This document shows positions 8,873 through 50,399 of a DNA stretch of 64,000 nt, one piece after another (positions within the stretch are counted from its first letter, which is position 1; each line of letters opens with the position of its first letter). The notes under the pieces are model-generated. The model made no database searches. It was given only the letters and a program-made list of their open reading frames with translations, and had not been told where the DNA came from. The stretch is from a virus. Where the stretch lies: the IMG/VR virus record IMGVR_UViG_3300034103_001027, positions 42,834 to 106,833 of that record; one strand, 5' to 3'. A program made the position numbers and the translations under genes.

Positions 8873-9982
8873 TTATGCTGCGTAGTAAGCGCCGGTGTAC
8901 TTGGGCTGATGGACATAGTTGCCCAAGAAGCCTACTAGGAATTGACTCAACTGGCTTTCTGTGGACCAATCAGTGTCAGTGAAGAACAGGTCGCTGTGTA
9001 CTGAGTACAGGGCTGACGTTGATGGGTTGATCGCAAAGCCTTGACCTGCTGGGCAGTCAAAGTCGCTGGTGATCAAGGATCCACCGTAAGTCAGCGTGTC
9101 AGGGAAGCCTAGATTAGAGGCGTAATCGCTAACGCGAGTTCGCTCTCGTTCTTCCAGTCTGTCCTCGACGGCGCTGTACAATTCTTGCGACAGCAACTGA
9201 ACGACAGGAGCAGCGCCTTCGCCACCAGTGTGACGGATTGACTGAGTCATTCGTCGCATCGCTTTCAAGCAGTTAGCTGCCCATCCTGTCGATGCGCCGA
9301 TGCTGGCCGAGACGTTCATGATCTTGGGACTGTTGTAGTCATAATCGCTGGAGCCAGAACCAAGTGGCCAGTCAGTAAGTAGCGCGGCGCATGGACGGCC
9401 TGATCCAATATTGTTGGACCATGTCCCGCCAATGGCTCCAAGAGCGATTGACAGTCCACCGTAGGTGGTTCCTGCGGTTGGCTTCATGATCCACTCAGTG
9501 GATGGTGAGCCAGGCGTGTCACCCTTCAAGAAGCTCTTGATCCCAGTCATGTACTGAGAGTTTGCTCCACTGTTGTCGATGTAGAACTGGCCGTTCAACT
9601 TGCGAGTCATCGCTCGAACCAAGCGGTCCATCTTCTTGCCAGCTTCGTCAACGATTGCTTGAGGCGAATCGCTGTTGATCATTTGGAATCGACGACGCAT
9701 AGTGTCGGTTGACTCTAGTTCGGCGTGCGAAATTCGCAGTTGCTCGTAAACTTGGGTTTCGTCCCATACGTGACGGTCGCTGCCAGTGATGGCACGAACC
9801 TTTGGCTCGCGTACTTCGATGTCCCAGACCATTTCTGGAGCCTTCATGTTCAGGATAACATTACCCTGGATTTCCATGAGCTTCAGCAAAAGGCGATTTC
9901 GGATGGTGTGATCGGTGGCTTCCTTAAAGTAGGCTGGCACCGTTACTTTGAGCGCGGCTAGCGCTTCAGCAATGGCATTCAC
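8873..9982 (-). CDS. Major capsid protein (HK97-fold type)
   Basis: A 369-residue protein that fits the size and gene order of phage major capsid proteins: scaffold upstream, decoration-like protein downstream. It has an N-terminal helix, an extended region rich in charged residues (WDIEVREPKVRAITG) and the 'AGKKMDRLVRAMTRKLNGQFY' helix that often marks the spine helix of this fold. The start is GTG at 9982 with an AAGGAG site about 9 bases upstream, not a later ATG. No protease cleavage site is evident. Confidence 0.8.
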   Translation of the reverse strand: MNAIAEALAALKVTVPAYFKEATDHTIRNRLLLKLMEIQGNVILNMKAPEMVWDIEVREPKVRAITGSDRHVWDETQVYEQLRISHAELESTDTMRRRFQMINSDSPQAIVDEAGKKMDRLVRAMTRKLNGQFYIDNSGANSQYMTGIKSFLKGDTPGSPSTEWIMKPTAGTTYGGLSIALGAIGGTWSNNIGSGRPCAALLTDWPLGSGSSDYDYNSPKIMNVSASIGASTGWAANCLKAMRRMTQSIRHTGGEGAAPVVQLLSQELYSAVEDRLEERERTRVSDYASNLGFPDTLTYGGSLITSDFDCPAGQGFAINPSTSALYSVHSDLFFTDTDWSTESQLSQFLVGFLGNYVHQPKYTGAYYAA

Positions 9983-10047: not shown

Positions 10048-11289
10048 CTAGTTTCTCCACCCGCTGACCCGCTCGGCGTTCTCTGGATTCATTCGAACCA
10101 TATTTGCCAGGCGAAGCGTTGGGAGAGTTTTCGATACATGCCCAACGTCTGCCGCTGGGGTTTGTTGATTTGGTACTGGCTGTCTGTTGTCAGCCAAGAG
10201 TCGTTTTTGCTGCGCCTGAGTTAGGACGGGTGCTGGCTCGGCGACTGCTGCTTGTGCTTGTGCTTGTTGAGTCCCTGCTGTCGCGAACTCAAGTGCGAGT
10301 TGTCGCAGTGTGATTTCTGGAGCGCCGGGAAGTTGTGTTCGCAATTGCGAAAGCTTGTTCTTGAAAGTGCTTCCCGCTTTAGTCCAGGCAACGTCGCCGG
10401 ATCCGAAGAAGTCTTGTTTTGGCTCGCCGTTTGCGTCCAAGTGGAACAGGACAGACTTGTTTACTTCGTGCCACTGCTGGAGTGACTGCCTGCTCTGTCG
10501 CTCTTGCTCGGCCTGGACGTAACTCTGTCGCTCTTGCTCGACTCGGGAGTTCATCTCAGCAAACCTGGCTTCGATGATTCTCTGTGCCTTTTCCTCGGCG
10601 ATTTTCTCGATAATCTCTTTGCTGTCTTCGACTACTGCCATCGGGTTCCGTAGGAGCATGTCAGCCTGCTCTCGGGATGCCCTTTCGTACTCGTTGATTG
10701 TACGGGCTGCATCGATACTCACCGCGCCGAATGAAGTAATTGGCTTGGCGTAACCACTGTCATCGCGTTCGACGTAGTTTTCCAGTAGTGGATCATACTT
10801 CTGCAGCTCACGGAACCGTCTCGCGATTTGTTGCGATTGAGTCTCTGGTCCCGTTGGTTGAGAATGTCCTGTTGTGTCCTGAGGGGCAGCCGCAGACTGA
10901 GCGGGTTGACTCTGAGAAGCTCTAAGCTGTTCTAACTCGTCCCTGAGTCGCGCTGCTTCCGACATAGCTTGCGAACCCGCCAAAGCGCGAGAGATGACGC
11001 TTTCGTAGAGTTCTGCAGGATCAGTCCCTTCATCGACAGTGATACCCTTCTGTCTGAGAAGGTCTTCAAACCTGATGGCCGCCTCTGAAGGCTGGCCCTG
11101 CCCCTGGTCTAAAACTGAAGCGGCATCCGTGCCTTCTACTGTCTCTATTCCCGGCGACAGTGCTTCAGTTGTAACCTGCGATACTTCCTCGCTAACCGTT
11201 GTAGCTGCAGTATCGCTTGTTTGAGTTGTGTCTGCTTGTGTTTTGCTGCTGGACATAAAGTCCGCAAAACGAAGTTCTTGGGATGTCAT
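10048..11289 (-). CDS. Probable scaffolding protein (413 aa)
   Basis: A Gln/Glu/Ala-rich, low-complexity protein with long predicted coiled coil at about residues 185-270 (KEIIEKIAEEKAQRIIEARF and QERQSYVQAEQERQSRQSLQ). The Thr/Ser-rich acidic N-terminus and Ala/Gln-rich linker near residue 350 are typical of phage scaffolds, which guide capsid assembly and then leave. It is the first gene of the leftward structural operon. Function is inferred from composition and position. Confidence 0.6.
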   Translation of the reverse strand: MTSQELRFADFMSSSKTQADTTQTSDTAATTVSEEVSQVTTEALSPGIETVEGTDAASVLDQGQGQPSEAAIRFEDLLRQKGITVDEGTDPAELYESVISRALAGSQAMSEAARLRDELEQLRASQSQPAQSAAAPQDTTGHSQPTGPETQSQQIARRFRELQKYDPLLENYVERDDSGYAKPITSFGAVSIDAARTINEYERASREQADMLLRNPMAVVEDSKEIIEKIAEEKAQRIIEARFAEMNSRVEQERQSYVQAEQERQSRQSLQQWHEVNKSVLFHLDANGEPKQDFFGSGDVAWTKAGSTFKNKLSQLRTQLPGAPEITLRQLALEFATAGTQQAQAQAAVAEPAPVLTQAQQKRLLADNRQPVPNQQTPAADVGHVSKTLPTLRLANMVRMNPENAERVSGWRN

Positions 11290-11461
11290 TTGTACTCTAC
11301 TGGGGGATAGTGTCGCTTTGCCATCGCTCGGGTGGCTTTAATGCGATTTATTCCCCAAGTGGAGTCAGTGACTAGAAAGCTCCCGAATTGAGTATCAAAA
11401 AAATAAAAAAATCGAAAAAGGAATAATGTGTAGGCAATGGTTCTTTTTAAGAAAGGTGTTT
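11290..11461. promoter_or_regulatory. Divergent control region between scaffold and small HTH gene
   Basis: About 170 bases separate the leftward structural operon from the rightward HTH gene. The part near 11396-11422 is almost pure A/T (runs of A broken by single T and C). Late-operon promoters should lie here. I could not pick out a convincing -35/-10 pair on either strand. Confidence 0.4.
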
Positions 11462-11674
11462 ATGGACAGTATTCCTCCAACGGAAGAGTGGCTATCAGCT
11501 AAGGAAGTGGCGGCAATCTTTGGCGTCAGCGTGTCTCGGGTTTATTTTGCGCATAGTACTGGACGCAGGAATTCGTCTGGATCGCTAGTGCGGCTGACTA
11601 TGTTTCGGACTCTGTCCGGACTGGCTACGACCAGGAAGCTCGTGGATGAGTTCCTGCTGAAGCTGAATGGTTAG
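11462..11674 (+). CDS. Small helix-turn-helix DNA-binding protein
   Basis: A 70-residue protein with an excisionase/MerR-like HTH at its N-terminus (WLSAKEVAAIFGVSVSRVYF, residues 9-28). I chose the ATG at 11462 (MDSIPPTEEW) because AAAGG lies 7 bases upstream. It overlaps the following DUF1289 gene (ATGGTTAG). It lies divergent to the late operon, so it may regulate it, or serve as a recombination directionality factor for the nearby double recombinase. Confidence 0.65.
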   Translation: MDSIPPTEEWLSAKEVAAIFGVSVSRVYFAHSTGRRNSSGSLVRLTMFRTLSGLATTRKLVDEFLLKLNG

Positions 11675-11861
11675 AAGCCCATGCACTGGAAATTGTATCT
11701 TATGTGATACAATATGCATTGGCTGTGGCAGGACTCTCGATGAGATATTTCGATGGCGCGCTATGCGCGACTGCGAGAAGCTCGAGGTTTTGAGGCGGAC
11801 GGGAGCACTGGACTGTGAGTCCACTTCCAGCGATGAATCAGCCGAAGGTGATCCGCGCTAA
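11667..11861 (+). CDS. DUF1289 family small cysteine-rich protein
   Basis: A 64-residue protein with the DUF1289 signature: SPCTGNC, then CIGCGRTLDEIFRW, four cysteines in the usual spacing plus the conserved GRTLDEI. The family is common in bacteria as a predicted metal or Fe-S binding protein of unknown role. It overlaps the HTH gene before it, and its last 101 bases overlap the end of the recombinase gene on the opposite strand. Confidence 0.75.
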   Translation: MVRSPCTGNCILCDTICIGCGRTLDEIFRWRAMRDCEKLEVLRRTGALDCESTSSDESAEGDPR

Positions 11862-13188
11862 ATGGCTTCTTGAGGCTGAGTCTTGCCTTGTGTTTGCACT
11901 TGCCCCACAAGCTGCTGCCAATCATCTCGTGCATGATGTCTATCTGTCTCAGCCTGCGCTGCACATAGGATCGCTTGAGCATTGTCAGATTGGCCTTGAC
12001 GCCTAGTTCCCTGGCCTTGATGGCTATGATCATGTCCTCGATTTGAGTGGTAGACAATCCGAGTTCGTACTTCATGACCCATATCTGACCGGCTTGAAGC
12101 AGTTGCTTCTTATCGACAGCCAGTCTCTTTTGGTGTTCGCTAATCTGTTCTATTTTGAATCCAGCGCGAGGGAGTCCATTTGGCCTTCCGTTTGCTTGGC
12201 ACCATGCAGCAGTTTCCTTGTTTCGATTAGACTTCATCTGGCTTTCTAATTGTGCAATTGAAGCCATCAGCGATATCCATTCCTTACCCTGCCCTGTGTC
12301 TGTCCTGATTCGCTCGCAGACGAAGTGAACGTAAGCGCCTTTTCGCTGTATCTCGGCTATTGTCTTCATGGCGTCCAGGGTATTTCGCCACCCTCGATCC
12401 ATTCGGTAGATAACGACGTCATCCCCTGGCTGCAGGTCGTTCATAAGCCGCTTACCGGCCTCTCGCTCCATAAATGGCACTGAGAAGGCGCTAATGGCAG
12501 GATCGGAGTAAACTGGCCCTACAGGGCACTGTAGCTTCTCTGCGAGGTCCTCTGCGTATTTGGCATTGGCAGTGCCTTGCCACTTCAGGCCGAGCCCTGA
12601 GACGTACTGTGGCTCTGTGGATACACGTTCGTACATGCGGATCGTGCCTGTTGGTCGCTCCGTTTTGATCTTTTGAGGCAGGACGAATTCGCTATTCATC
12701 CATTTGACTTTTGGCTTCGTGTTTGACGATTGCGAGTTTTGAAGCCTCTTGATTAGTAGTGCTTCTCTAATTCGCTCGCTTGTCACATCAGAAGCGTATT
12801 GAGCCATAGCGGCTAGGATATTCGCCTGTAGCTTCCCGGAGGCTGTGGTCGTGTTGATCTGGTTGTTGATGAAATGCACGAAGATACCCTTCTCCTCGAA
12901 GAAGTGCATCAAGTTGCAGAAGTCTCTCAGGTTTCTGCATAGTCGGTCGATCTGCAAGCATATAACGTGGTCGCCCGGCTTTACCTGCTCGATGATGCGA
13001 CCACCACCTGGGCGGCCCGCAAAGGATTTGCTCCATGCGCTGACGCCAGCATCAGTAACCACAACTTGCTCAGCCTCTGGTATAACCGAAGTGGCATAAT
13101 TGGTTGTCCTGACCATTTGGTCTGGTATACTGATGTCAGAGGCTTTGGAGTCCTTATGGCTAACGCGATTGTAAAGGAATGCTTTCAT
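11761..13188 (-). CDS. Serine recombinase with two catalytic domains in tandem
   Basis: A 475-residue protein. Residues 1 to ~145 form one resolvase/invertase catalytic domain: FLYNRVSHKD carries the nucleophile Ser, LQIDRLCRNLRDF the DRLxR motif, and ANILAAMAQYASDVTSERIR the long E helix. Residues ~180 to 330 form a second full copy: RMYERVSTEP, YRMDRGWRNTLDA, and ISLMASIAQLESQMKSNRNK. A basic C-terminal region (LSTTQIEDMIIAIKARELGV, then RQIDIMHEMI) likely binds DNA. Normal serine recombinases have one catalytic domain and act as tetramers. The start codon overlaps that of the divergent sigma gene by two bases, and no Shine-Dalgarno is seen for it. Confidence 0.85.
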   Translation of the reverse strand: MKAFLYNRVSHKDSKASDISIPDQMVRTTNYATSVIPEAEQVVVTDAGVSAWSKSFAGRPGGGRIIEQVKPGDHVICLQIDRLCRNLRDFCNLMHFFEEKGIFVHFINNQINTTTASGKLQANILAAMAQYASDVTSERIREALLIKRLQNSQSSNTKPKVKWMNSEFVLPQKIKTERPTGTIRMYERVSTEPQYVSGLGLKWQGTANAKYAEDLAEKLQCPVGPVYSDPAISAFSVPFMEREAGKRLMNDLQPGDDVVIYRMDRGWRNTLDAMKTIAEIQRKGAYVHFVCERIRTDTGQGKEWISLMASIAQLESQMKSNRNKETAAWCQANGRPNGLPRAGFKIEQISEHQKRLAVDKKQLLQAGQIWVMKYELGLSTTQIEDMIIAIKARELGVKANLTMLKRSYVQRRLRQIDIMHEMIGSSLWGKCKHKARLSLKKPFSADHLRLIHRWKWTHSPVLPSASKPRASRSRA

Positions 13189-13876
13189 GGGTAAACGTCG
13201 AAAAGGAGGGATGTTTTCACCGAGTCCCTATGTGACTGGTGCGAAGCAAATGTCAACTGGAGAGGAATTGCAAGCGATTGCCGTATACCAGAAGACGAGA
13301 GATGGTAGTTTAGCGGAATCGGTACTTAAGTCAAGGGCCTCTTGGGTGCAGAGTATCATTGCTAATATACCCATGCCCAGCTTTGCTGACATGGATACGG
13401 TGTTTTCTGATGTCATGCTGGCCGTCTATGAGTCGCTCTCGAACTACGATGAATCCAAGGCGGCCCTGTCCACATACCTCTGGAGGGTTATCTATAATTC
13501 TGCACTGACCAGCGCCAAAGAGCAGGATACAAATGCTGAGCAGTTTACCCCTGAACTGATCGTCGATGAGGCCGTTGATTACTCTGAGTGCATCGAAAAC
13601 GCCCGAAAGGTCATCTTGAATACACCCCCCGAGATGCTCAATGAGCGATCCAGAAAGGTTGCGCACATGATGCTCAAGGGTTACTCCGTTCAGGAGATAG
13701 CAAGCACCTTAGACGTGACCAAGTCCGTTGCCGGTGAGATAATCACCAGCATACGTCGATACATCGCTTGGTGCATGGTCAAGCAGAATCTATCTGCAGA
13801 GCCGGTCATTAGCGACAGCGATCTTATGGATCTGGCTGAGGAGCATGAGCGGGCCAATGTGACCAAATGGCGGTAG
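13187..13876 (+). CDS. Phage-encoded sigma factor (sigma-70 family, ECF-like)
   Basis: A 229-residue protein with the two core sigma regions. Region 2 lies near residues 65-110: DMDTVFSDVMLAVYESLSNY followed by STYLWRVIYNSALTS. Region 4 lies near 150-195: MLNERSRKVAHMMLKGYSV followed by IASTLDVTKSVAGEIITSI, an HTH. Such factors redirect host RNA polymerase to phage promoters. AAAGGA lies 9 bases before the ATG at 13187. It converges on the phoH gene with a gap of three bases. Confidence 0.82.
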   Translation: MGKRRKGGMFSPSPYVTGAKQMSTGEELQAIAVYQKTRDGSLAESVLKSRASWVQSIIANIPMPSFADMDTVFSDVMLAVYESLSNYDESKAALSTYLWRVIYNSALTSAKEQDTNAEQFTPELIVDEAVDYSECIENARKVILNTPPEMLNERSRKVAHMMLKGYSVQEIASTLDVTKSVAGEIITSIRRYIAWCMVKQNLSAEPVISDSDLMDLAEEHERANVTKWR

Positions 13877-24595: not shown

Positions 24596-25735
24596 TCAAA
24601 CAGGAACAGCACAACCGGAGTTGCGACTTACATTCCCTAGCCCTGACGCCTGATGCCCCAGGCGTTTAATATTTAAAGCAGCATTCAAATCTCGATCAAC
24701 TGAACAATGACAACCACCACAATTAAAAACTCGAACATCAAGAGGCATGTTTTGAACACGACCGCATTGATGACAGGTTTTGGTTGTCGGTTCCCATTGT
24801 CCGATTTGCTCGGTACTTTTACCACGCTTGTACGCTACCCACTTCAGAATCTGCAAGAAACTATCGAACGAAAGATCGGATATCTTCCTTCCCCAAAGTT
24901 TCTGCATGGCTGCGATATTAAGCGTCTCAAAGTACATTATGTCAAACCTATCACACAACGAATGTGCCAACTTAAAGAACCAATCGGTTCTCCGGTTGGC
25001 GATTCGCTCGTGTGCTCTGCTCAATCGATACTTTGCTTTTCGGCGATTCTTGCTGCCTTTCTTTTTACTTGCCAGTTCTCGGTTGCACTTGGCAATTTCA
25101 GCCATGCTAACCTTAAAGAACTGCGGACTTTCAATGGTAGTGCCGTCGCTGCAAGTGAGGAATTGCTTGAGTCCAAAATCAAAGCCAGCCGTATGAATGG
25201 AACCTGTGACTTGATTTTGAGTCTCTTCCTTCTCACAACTAAACACTACCCAAAAACGATTCATGCTATCTCGCTTGAGCGTGCAAGTTTTGATATTGCC
25301 TTCGATCTCACGAGATTTAATGAATTTGTACTGATACTTACCAAAACGGATTCGATTTTCGCCAAGGTATGCCCAACCTGCCTGCTTGAACGTGACGCTT
25401 CCATGCCCAGCGGAACGCTTGAACTTGGGCTTGCCTCGCTTCAGCCCAGCCCGCGTCTTGATCCACTTAAAAAACGCTTGGTACGTCAAGTCGAGTTTTT
25501 CAATGACCGCCTGGACACATTGCGATCCAACGACTTGCCAAGCTTCGCGACGATTGCGAAGCTTGGCAATGTGCTTCATCAGCTGGAATTTATTGCAGTG
25601 CTTCTTGAACAATCGATAGTGGGTTTTTTGAAAAGCAACACAGTGATTGCGAATGCGAGTGGCTGTAGTCACAAGGCGATGAAGCCTGTGATTCTTGCTG
25701 CTCTCGTACATTCGGAATTTGTAGCTGATTCTCAT
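24596..25735 (-). CDS. tnpB: TnpB RNA-guided nuclease of the IS element
   Basis: A 379-residue TnpB. The RuvC triad appears intact: Asp in AGFDFGLKQFLTCSDG (~190), Glu in IMYFETLNIAAMQKLWG (~275), Asp in CSVDRDLNAALNI (~350). The zinc-finger insertion is present (TCHQCGRVQ then NCGGCHC). TnpB uses a guide RNA from the element's right end, with the guide taken from the flanking DNA; here that is 24554 leftward, starting AGCGAACTGCGAGGG. It would then cut copies of the site that lack the insertion next to TTAC. The start abuts tnpA. Confidence 0.93.
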   Translation of the reverse strand: MRISYKFRMYESSKNHRLHRLVTTATRIRNHCVAFQKTHYRLFKKHCNKFQLMKHIAKLRNRREAWQVVGSQCVQAVIEKLDLTYQAFFKWIKTRAGLKRGKPKFKRSAGHGSVTFKQAGWAYLGENRIRFGKYQYKFIKSREIEGNIKTCTLKRDSMNRFWVVFSCEKEETQNQVTGSIHTAGFDFGLKQFLTCSDGTTIESPQFFKVSMAEIAKCNRELASKKKGSKNRRKAKYRLSRAHERIANRRTDWFFKLAHSLCDRFDIMYFETLNIAAMQKLWGRKISDLSFDSFLQILKWVAYKRGKSTEQIGQWEPTTKTCHQCGRVQNMPLDVRVFNCGGCHCSVDRDLNAALNIKRLGHQASGLGNVSRNSGCAVPV

Positions 25736-37684: not shown

Positions 37685-38644
37685 CTAAACATTAAAGAAC
37701 TTTCGCAATCTCTCGTGACCGTATTGACCTTTCGTCTTCTCAATTATCTGCTTGACCGTGTACTCCTTTCTCTCATGCCCTGCGGACTCGACGAACATTT
37801 GGCAGCCCATCGAGCAGGCCCCGGTAACTGACCTGTACAACTGAACGCACTTCTCGAACGGCAGCTTGTCGGTTAGCTTCAGGCCCTTGAACTCACTGGT
37901 GTCCCTCGGTGATAACTTGTAGGCCAGGGACTCACGCGCTTTCTCGATGGTCTCTCCGTGAGAATAGTTCTCCCCGTCTGTTACGAGATACGAAACCTTG
38001 CCGTCGATCTGGCGTAGTTTGCGAATACCAAACTTCTCGCTTATGACTTCCGAGAAGACACCATCAACCTTGATGTACTTGCCGTTCTGCCAAGACAGGA
38101 GTCGAACATCGCTTCCTATATGGCGACTGTCGCCCTGCAGGTGTAGGTCTCCACCAACCGTAGGATTAAATCCTTCCGGCAGGCTGGTAACACTCCGCAG
38201 ATATAGGTTTCCACCAACCGTAGGATTGAATCCTTCCGGCAGGCTGATAACCCTCGACAGGTATAGGTCTCCACCAACCGTAGGATTAAATCCTTCCGGC
38301 AGGCTGGTAACGCTGTGCAGGTAAAGGCTTCTACAAACCGTAGGATTAAATCCTTCCGGCAGGCTGGTAACACTCCGCAGGTCGAGGTATCCACCAACCG
38401 TAGGATTGAATCCTTCCGGCAGGCTGGTAACACTCCGCAGGTCGAGGTCTCCACCAACCGTAGGATTGAATCCTTCCGGCAGGCTGGTAACACTCGACAG
38501 GTATAGGTCTCCACCAACCGTAGGATTAAATCCTTCCGGCAGGCTGGTAACACTCCGCAGGTCGAGGTCTCCACCAATGGGCTGCCTCCCGTCGAACTGC
38601 TCGTCAGTAATATTGAATTTCTTGCAAAACTCTTTTCGATTCAT
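37685..38644 (-). CDS. Leucine-rich-repeat-like protein (319 aa)
   Basis: Residues ~25-185 contain seven or eight 20-residue units of the form TSLPEGFNPTVGGDLYLRSV, an LRR-like beta-solenoid. The units are nearly identical at DNA level (60-base tandem repeats). A non-repeat C-terminal domain follows (KYIKVDGVFSEVISEKFGIR, KCVQLYRSVTGACSMGCQMF). Similar repeat proteins occur in phages and Bacteroidetes, function unknown; protein binding is likely. The leader carries the palindrome-RBS module. Confidence 0.75.
   Translation of the reverse strand: MNRKEFCKKFNITDEQFDGRQPIGGDLDLRSVTSLPEGFNPTVGGDLYLSSVTSLPEGFNPTVGGDLDLRSVTSLPEGFNPTVGGYLDLRSVTSLPEGFNPTVCRSLYLHSVTSLPEGFNPTVGGDLYLSRVISLPEGFNPTVGGNLYLRSVTSLPEGFNPTVGGDLHLQGDSRHIGSDVRLLSWQNGKYIKVDGVFSEVISEKFGIRKLRQIDGKVSYLVTDGENYSHGETIEKARESLAYKLSPRDTSEFKGLKLTDKLPFEKCVQLYRSVTGACSMGCQMFVESAGHERKEYTVKQIIEKTKGQYGHERLRKFFNV
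38140..38579 (-). repeat. Seven 60-base tandem repeats inside the LRR-like gene
   Basis: Each 60-base unit contains the same core (TAGGATTAAATCCTTCCGGC on the plus strand, with A/G variation at one base) and a more variable stretch. Exact 20-codon periodicity keeps the frame, so unit number can change by recombination or slippage without breaking the gene. Confidence 0.9.
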
Positions 38645-48771: not shown

Positions 48772-49542
48772 TTAGGCGACTTCAGCGGTAGCCGCTGCAA
48801 AAGCTTCTCGAGCCATCTGATCTACTTCAGGGGCAAGCATTCCATCCAGCCAAACTGCCTTGTCGGCAAGGGCTTGGCTTACCACTAGATCGAACACTCT
48901 ACCGCTAAACTCAGGGCCGCCAGCCTTCAGCCAGTCAGCGATTAGCAGCAGCTTGTCATTGGTATCCGCTGGCAGGACCGCTGGAATAGGCGACTCAACC
49001 GTCTCTTGAGAGACGGTTGGATTGCCAGTCGCACTCTCGGGCTGCGCTTCCTCAGCCTTCTTCTTAGACTCAATCGCCCCTACAGCCTTAAGCTGCGCAT
49101 TCATCTGCTGGTTGAGCAGATTGCCAACGCTCCGCAAGCGGTTCCCGATGCACTTGCAATCCAATTCCCACTTGCGATACGCTTCGGCGTCTGCTGGAGA
49201 CGGGCGTACTTGCATGCGCATTTCCCGGACAACTAAGTCCCAATGGGCGTAGCTGGTCCATGCAAAGCCGCACTTGGCGCTAAACACCCCTTGGCTGACG
49301 TCGCGCTTCTTCTTCTTGGCAAGAGACTTCAGCGCTTCAACAATGGTCTCATTGCAAGACCAGAACGCCTTGATACATTGCAGCTTGTCGGCGCTCGCCG
49401 TATCAACGGTCGAGTCCGCAAACACTTCCCGCATGAATGGCTCCATCATCACGACGCGCTCACTGTCAGTCAGTCCATTCTCAATCTCTTGTGCCAGCAT
49501 ATCCCTAACGGCACTCTCGAACTTGGTCAGATTCTTGCTCAT
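48772..49542 (-). CDS. Unknown protein (256 aa)
   Basis: First gene of the leftward series next to the non-coding region. Helical, charged (FESAVRDMLAQEIENGLTDS, NQQMNAQLKAVGAIESKKKA), with a Pro/Glu/Ser linker near residue 180 and an acidic helical end. The linker codons (TVSQETVE) hold an in-frame palindrome copy. An AAGGAG site and a palindrome precede the ATG. No family recognised. Confidence 0.65.
   Translation of the reverse strand: MSKNLTKFESAVRDMLAQEIENGLTDSERVVMMEPFMREVFADSTVDTASADKLQCIKAFWSCNETIVEALKSLAKKKKRDVSQGVFSAKCGFAWTSYAHWDLVVREMRMQVRPSPADAEAYRKWELDCKCIGNRLRSVGNLLNQQMNAQLKAVGAIESKKKAEEAQPESATGNPTVSQETVESPIPAVLPADTNDKLLLIADWLKAGGPEFSGRVFDLVVSQALADKAVWLDGMLAPEVDQMAREAFAAATAEVA
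48999..49016 (-). repeat. CCGTCT-N6-AGACGG palindrome inside a gene
   Basis: Reads CCGTCTCTCAAGAGACGG on the minus strand within the linker of the 256-aa protein; a perfect 7-pair stem despite its coding position. Confidence 0.75.
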
Positions 49543-49554
49543 TGCATTCTCCTT

Positions 49555-49570
49555 CGTCTCTTAAGAGACG
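49555..49570 (-). repeat. CCGTCT-type palindrome upstream of 49542 gene
   Basis: Reads CGTCTCTTAAGAGACG on the minus strand, followed by AAGGAGAATGCA-ATG of the 48772-49542 gene. Confidence 0.75.
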
Positions 49571-49645
49571 ACTAAAAACGGTTCGGCAGTATAGCGAAGG
49601 TGCTTGTCTGCTCTCGATTCACTCGACTTTGCAAGAGAATCGAAA

Positions 49646-49686
49646 GCAGCCCTTGCACCAATAAGATACAAGGGCTGCCATTTTTA
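49646..49686 (+). terminator. Hairpin with T-run, possible plus-strand terminator
   Basis: GCAGCCCTTG (49646-49655) pairs perfectly with CAAGGGCTGC (49669-49678), followed by CATTTTTAG. No plus-strand gene ends just before it, so it may end a small RNA or guard the leftward operon against readthrough. Confidence 0.55.
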
Positions 49687-50194
49687 GTTTCTAGTTATGG
49701 TGAGAGTCGATGCCCCGCAGCAATCCAGACCCTTTTGGGGTACTGGTTGTAAAGCGCCCATATTGCCGCTTTACACTTCCCGTAGATAGCCCCTGCGATA
49801 CTTTCCGCCTATTTAATCGCGCCAAATTGTAGGCTATTGCTCACGCTAAAATCGGTTTCTAGTCTCCGATAGTGAATACCCGCTTTCCTAGTGTTTTGCC
49901 AGAACACCAGGCGTAAGAGACCCCCTTGATAGGTGGTGCATTGAATATCCGGCCTTTTATTGGCGACTACACGCCGCCTGACTACACGCAATAAACGCTA
50001 GAATCCGCATCATATCGCTATGAATGCGTTAGATTGTCGCGCTATCTACGTCGTAACATTTTATTGTTACAGCCCCCCGCTTTTCATGGCCTTCCTCAAG
50101 TCAGGGTTTCGCAGGGCGGTCAATACTAGCCATCGGTCTTGACAAGGGTAGTATTCCTGGAGCACACGGTTGGGTTTCCCCCAACTCAGTGACT

Positions 50195-50226
50195 GGTCCT
50201 AGTTTATCGAAAACTCGACTAGGACC
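50195..50226. repeat. Inverted repeat GGTCCTAGT / ACTAGGACC
   Basis: Nine-base perfect arms with a 14-base loop (TTATCGAAAACTCG), in the non-coding region. Confidence 0.6.
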
Positions 50227-50399
50227 CCGCTGATAATCTGCTATCGCAGCTTTCTGTCGCGATTACCGATGCGACAACCTAACATCATATGGGACAATCG
50301 TTCCTTGCATGCTTGTGTTGCTGTGATGCTATTTCCAATTGCCTAGCATTGTGGCAACTAAACATCGTATGGAACAAGTGAAACAATGGTTTCGGTTGT

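Follow-up and report, generated by a model that had tools for sequence, protein, structure and literature searches.

Large serine integrases (TP901-1, phiC31, Bxb1) carry RD and zinc domains after their catalytic domain. In the small serine recombinases, such as the gamma-delta and Tn3 resolvases and the Gin and Hin invertases, each chain has a single catalytic domain and ends in a small HTH. Two-Resolvase architectures do occur among annotated proteins. As described in passages of two papers (PMC4499144, PMC9943657), an ordinary serine recombinase places a dimer at each crossover site; two dimers synapse and cut, and a half-turn rotation follows, so that the enzymes are seen there as tetramers of identical single-domain subunits. 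Engineered zinc-finger and TAL recombinase fusions have covalently joined recombinase parts, and in this they are like the protein described below; they are man-made, however, and joined to other DNA-binding domains, with no natural tandem among those listed. None of the papers listed in our literature searches, in one of them 15 of 147, concerns a natural serine recombinase that has two catalytic domains; where the words ‘two recombinase domains’ turned up, in passages of PMC8989519 and PMC3983117, other proteins were concerned.

Here we describe environmental phages of an uncharacterised group that encode a serine recombinase with two complete catalytic domains in each chain. The DNA analysed, termed the window in what follows, is a stretch of 64,000 nucleotides corresponding to bases 42834-106833 of a 106,833-base IMG/VR phage record (G000). 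Because the ends of that record overlap by 129 bases, at 99.2% identity, it appears to be a nearly complete genome, circular or terminally redundant. The recombinase gene and its parts lie in the window as follows:

11761-13188, minus strand: tandem serine recombinase (ATG start, 475 aa, stop-free ORF, PF00239 matched twice)
12745-13188, minus strand: D1, catalytic domain 1, residues 1-148 (PF00239 at residues 3-148)
13159-13161, minus strand: codon of the D1 nucleophile, S10
12646-12744, minus strand: linker, residues 149-181 (33 residues; placed from alignments, low confidence in both structure models)
12175-12645, minus strand: D2, catalytic domain 2, residues 182-338 (PF00239 in residues 177-475)
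12619-12621, minus strand: codon of the D2 nucleophile, S190
11764-12174, minus strand: C-terminal region, residues 339-475 (about 137 aa), presumed to bind DNA

By their sequence, both domains belong to the serine recombinase superfamily. PF00239 (Resolvase) matches two stretches of the 475-aa protein (whole-protein E 4.6e-51) and also each half taken alone (residues 1-158, E 5.4e-29; residues 177-475, E 3.8e-21), and the PHROGs phrog_95 and phrog_125 likewise match two stretches each. Aligned with one another, D1 and D2 reach a BLOSUM62 local score of 181, against a mean of 27 (SD 4.4, maximum 45) in 300 shuffles, and so are clearly of common ancestry. An earlier note on this DNA had claimed two complete sets of serine-recombinase motifs in one chain; the double PF00239 match, the modelled folds and the motifs themselves agree on this, with YNRVS at residue 6, DRLCRN at 81, YERVST at 186 and DRGWRN at 264. 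Expression of the gene is putative, since no Shine-Dalgarno-like sequence was seen directly before its ATG and its start overlaps the first ATG of a divergent sigma-factor-like gene (13187-13876, plus strand; Sigma70_r2 30.4 bits, cut-off 24). At the other end, a DUF1289 gene on the opposite strand (11667-11861, plus strand; E 1.2e-13) overlaps the recombinase 3′ end by about 100 bases.

The structure model of the window protein is poor (mean pLDDT 54.6, pTM 0.32), though Foldseek ranks resolvases first among its matches (1gdt_A, E 6e-9). A model of its homologue L115, built on an alignment of 12 family members (mean pLDDT 70, pTM 0.38), predicts two serine-recombinase cores and, behind each of them, a helix of 33 residues; its linker is weakly predicted, and its C-terminal region is helical throughout. 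At these pTM values the relative placement of D1 and D2 is uncertain in both models. The L115 D1 matches the TP901-1 integrase structure 3bvp with Z 17.4, and D2 matches gamma-delta resolvase (1zr2) with Z 14.2. The second unit thus has the resolvase fold by structural match as well as by PF00239.

No Pfam or PHROG family was matched by the C-terminal region, and comparison of this region alone with known DNA-binding domains established no homology (hhalign E 0.14; Pfam). That it is a basic DNA-binding region, as the earlier note held, is a fair guess. The Recombinase domain PF07508 had no Pfam match in the window protein, in L029 (the same protein as L118), in L280 or in the C-terminal part of L115, a result of Pfam matching on few proteins that leaves room for distant homology.

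Compared with the known classes, both tandem domains are like the small serine recombinases in catalytic fold, active-site residues and long E-type helix. With two catalytic domains and a larger C-terminal region outside any Pfam family, however, the protein as judged from sequence falls outside the small single-domain type as that type is defined. Nor is it demonstrably a large serine integrase: it resembles these in that D1 finds its best structural match in the TP901-1 catalytic domain, in its two phrog_95 matches and in its similar chain length, but PF07508 was not matched and a second catalytic domain stands in the place of the RD and zinc domains. Nearest to D1 and D2 in the tree described below are single-domain phage serine recombinases of 241-284 aa (L033, L036, L045, L069, L097, L190 and that of Microcystis phage MACPNOA1), with which D2 and the start of the C-terminal region align over 189 columns at a probability of 99.9. 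These differ in having one catalytic domain, and those of them that belong to the 56 scanned loci showed no neighbouring family capsid gene.

The tandem layout is found in 25 IMG/VR contigs holding 13 distinct proteins, at 23-96% identity, with a related capsid gene near in each. An identical copy of the window's 475-aa protein is present in two further contigs that bear other metagenome numbers and are collinear with the window. A second tandem protein (L029-L032), found with a serine-recombinase profile, has 32% identity to the window's over residues 1-342, and its contig has the gene order of the window: recombinase, small HTH-like ORF on the opposite strand, head-assembly ORF, capsid. The window's own neighbours in this block are:

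11426-11674, plus strand: small HTH-like ORF between the recombinase and the structural genes, a possible partner (weak wHTH and HTH_17 matches, below cut-off)
10048-11289, minus strand: putative scaffold or head-assembly protein, so called from its position between recombinase and capsid in the compared loci
8873-9982, minus strand: major capsid protein, the marker defining the phage group (phrog_9953 major head protein, E 2.9e-4)

The recombinase gene is co-oriented with the head genes and lies just upstream of them. The window capsid and the L031 capsid ORF are 26% identical over 368 aa (E 1e-37), while the head-assembly ORF has no significant similarity to its L031 counterpart, nor does the HTH-like ORF in pairwise comparison. 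Small HTH-like ORFs are similarly placed in four of six other representative loci. Searching 50,697 phage records at E 0.01 with the capsids of the window (8873-9982, minus strand) and of L111 (9959-11104) gave no match, and the group is probably an undescribed phage family. Three contigs of 67-68 kb (G003, G004 and G015) are collinear, circularly permuted relatives that carry both the tandem recombinase and the block of head genes, at a much smaller size than the 107 kb of the window's genome.

Searches from either gene tie the recombinase to this phage group. A capsid profile scan gave 18 loci, 17 of them with a tandem recombinase; the contig of the 18th stops 0.7 kb before the capsid. Beyond the two near-identical contigs, scanning with a tandem profile gave 77 loci, some new and some met before, of which 21 are tandem and 56 single-domain. 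The group's capsid and terminase genes are carried by 21 of 21 tandem loci and by none of the 56 single-domain loci within the DNA examined around them. In the last capsid scan, 22 of 29 loci had the tandem gene, six were on contigs that end at or before its place (L117, L264, L267, L269, L270 and L279), and one was without it. The gene therefore marks most of this phage group but not all capsid relatives, since L281, a capsid relative at 35% identity on a 29.5-kb contig (G788), has no PF00239 match; as an outgroup, this locus may help to date when the tandem gene was gained. In a control set of 79 serine-recombinase ORFs besides the window's own, the tandem layout appeared only in four copies of the L029 protein. 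Family records that match PF00239 do so exactly twice (nine of nine), with both matches inside the tandem ORF, and hence no single-domain partner turned up outside it.

A tree of 88 catalytic domains, made without L280, which was found afterwards, groups all 12 D2s together (88/76) and 11 of the 12 D1s together (100/99). The exception is the window's D1, which shares an unresolved fork with single-domain phage recombinases, four in number and 266-284 aa long, and is not firmly placed; the bootstrap of the tree had not settled. A single old duplication or fusion explains these relationships most simply and has moderate support; a separate origin for the window's D1 is the less likely alternative.

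Tandem relatives were also sought more widely. With L115, L280 and the window's own protein as tblastn queries, no record among 50,697 phage and 72,556 plasmid records had one place covering 80% of the query. The family profile matched in 195 of 398 Pseudomonadota genomes, with none over both domains among the matches listed (a search run without a positive control); the best listed match, at 94.1 bits, covers one domain. A DNA pattern for the tandem motifs, narrow in its fixed codons and spacing and so saying little about tandem genes in bacterial genomes, gave one viral match (L019) and one genome match (L020) beyond the two near-identical contigs: L019 is a one-domain integrase and L020 has no recombinase ORF. 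The 598-aa ‘DNA invertase’ of phage NatCom_35866, considered as a tandem relative, has one catalytic domain.

D36, R45, D67, E124 and R125 have roles in the serine recombinase active site, and D67 is important there. We use gamma-delta/Tn3 residue numbering, in which R8, S10, R68 and R71 are backed by passages of PMC4499144; the roles of R8, R68 and R71 are described there as well. Both domains of all 13 tandem proteins have the equivalents of R8, S10, D36, R45, R68 and R71. The hypergeometric probability that all six would fall among invariant columns by chance, calculated on 12 proteins without the later-found L280, is 2.2e-5 for D1 (27 of 148 columns invariant) and 7.1e-6 for D2 (24 of 157). 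Elsewhere the domains part ways. The D67 equivalent is D in D2 of all 13 proteins, but in D1 it is D in two (the window and L280), H in eight and T in three; the E124 equivalent is present in the window's D1 only, one of 13 D1s, and absent from D2 in 13 of 13.

Selection was compared in two pairs. For L111-L113, dN/dS is 0.006/0.336 in D1 and 0.010/0.359 in D2; for L109-L115 it is 0.141/1.019 and 0.216/1.11, respectively. A third pair, L169-L174, was left out, as the L169, L174 and L224 sequences mismatch their alignment rows (5′ extensions). Both domains are under purifying selection, strong in close pairs. The linker, whose length and sequence vary across the family alignments, evolves faster than either domain in close pairs, so that D1 is under more constraint than the linker. 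By active-site conservation, the D67 and E124 differences and selection, D1 and D2 are both constrained yet unequal.

We consider, with a probability of about 0.52, that the gene encodes a native single-chain (pseudo-dimeric), asymmetric serine site-specific recombinase. The earlier note had suggested a dimer of fixed pairing as a way in which the chain could work, and we find this reasonable and the best reading of the layout. D1 and D2 would be the two subunits of a resolvase-type dimer joined via a flexible linker, and the pair would be set on the crossover site by the helical C-terminal region and the long helices that follow the two cores. Two chains would synapse to form the usual four active sites; the two serine nucleophiles of each chain would then cut, and the DNA ends would be swapped and religated. 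Asymmetry would be by design, with D2 holding the full D67-R68-R71 set and D1 keeping its nucleophile but without D67 in most lineages. The enzyme would most likely be the core site-specific recombinase of these phages, and its substrate a circular or concatemeric phage genome, acted on in integration/excision or in multimer resolution.

Such a layout could fix how the enzyme pairs on DNA. The natural tie between two diverging catalytic domains offers a direct test of the freedom needed for rotation, and also of the need for equal active sites within a dimer and of how direction is set. If active, the protein could be used as an obligate heterodimer tool with asymmetric sites. The tandem recombinase is, besides, a marker for an uncharacterised phage group.

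Weighing the possible roles, we favour integration/excision somewhat over multimer resolution, and either of them far more than inversion. A tentative alternative that deserves attention is that the protein is an integrase of a truncated large-serine-integrase type, serving lysogeny, with the small HTH protein of the opposite strand as its directionality factor. Such an HTH-like ORF adjoins the tandem gene in several loci, the integrase family phrog_95 is among the best PHROG matches, and single-domain relatives hold a piece of the Recombinase domain (L045, PF07508 at 22.4 bits, cut-off 21.1). A phrog_1 tyrosine integrase, moreover, was found in none of 18 of the 20 family records, many of these being fragments. 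Yet the tandem proteins compared have no PF07508 match, no host-flanked copy was seen, and the gene lies within the head-gene block rather than a lysogeny block; the capsid was found in 0 of 399 Burkholderiales genomes, which counts weakly as the profile search had no positive control.

The earlier note had reasoned that the phage already has a tyrosine integrase and that the recombinase therefore probably does another job. The first half holds, the window's integrase-like gene matching phrog_1 at E 1.3e-18 (its Pfam score of 25.2 bits is below the 27.1 cut-off). The second half is weak: phrog_1 is present in only two of the 20 family records, both from the window's own phage, and therefore says little about the ancestral job of the tandem enzyme. 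A PF00589 search matched 0 of 19 records and was too insensitive to bear on the matter, since the window's own record was among those without a match. For two of the other jobs that the note had named, host-genome cutting and multimer resolution, the data spoke neither for nor against.

Somewhat unlikely, in our view, is that D1, its catalysis weakened, serves as a regulatory or structural partner that offers an extra dimerisation or synapsis surface, and that D2 alone cuts as an ordinary D2 dimer or tetramer. The replacement of D67 by H (8) or T (3) among the 13 D1s, where every D2 keeps D, fits such a division of labour, and ordinary resolvases have distinct catalytic-type and regulatory contacts, according to passages of PMC9943657. 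But all 13 proteins keep the nucleophile serine of D1 and five more of its active-site residues unchanged, D1 is more constrained than the linker, and the window and L280 keep D67 in D1.

For the asymmetric single-chain recombinase that we prefer, an extension that we think doubtful is that the linker of the covalently joined dimer spans the rotating halves and acts as a built-in rotation limiter, with the two unequal domains setting the left and right of the site and so the direction of the reaction. One half-turn would be permitted, and the tether would block repeated turns. This would apply if the two domains of one chain occupy both halves of one site; if true, it would be a new control of serine recombination, working without accessory sites or a separate directionality protein.

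A DNA invertase flipping a segment such as a tail-fibre cassette, one of the jobs raised by the earlier note, is very improbable. The phrog_125 (DNA invertase) matches would suit it, but 11 contig pairs had no inverted segment, that is, no opposite-strand aligned piece of at least 60 nt at 80% identity or more, in bulk consensus contigs where minority orientations can stay hidden. Recombination sites, whose mapping the same note had proposed, were sought among repeats around the gene and in alignments of the flanking non-coding DNA. In clade B a conserved hairpin and a run of T follow the gene, and there are short dyads; as recombination sites, none of these was rated above chance. The replaced cassettes between near-identical contigs had no motif common to their edges (by eye). 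That two separate recombinase genes were fused into this frame by chance or in assembly has next to no probability, because the layout is common to 13 distinct proteins in 25 contigs, the window's protein recurring unchanged in two contigs with other metagenome numbers and the 12 others being diverged tandem homologues.

At 48789-50370 a cassette of about 1.6 kb is swapped for unrelated sequence in the contig G001, which is otherwise 99% identical to the window. A 60-bp (20-codon) tandem repeat in coding frame at 38137-38577, inside the ORF at 37685-38644 (minus strand), has about 10 units more in G001 and about two fewer in G002 than in the window, as estimated from the offsets of the flanking alignments. 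The window also encodes a TnpB-like protein (24596-25735, minus strand; OrfB_IS605 E 1.3e-23, Cas12f1-like TNB E 3.5e-16), for which the first plasmid matches listed are cyanobacterial and Rhodothermus, at 45-47% identity.
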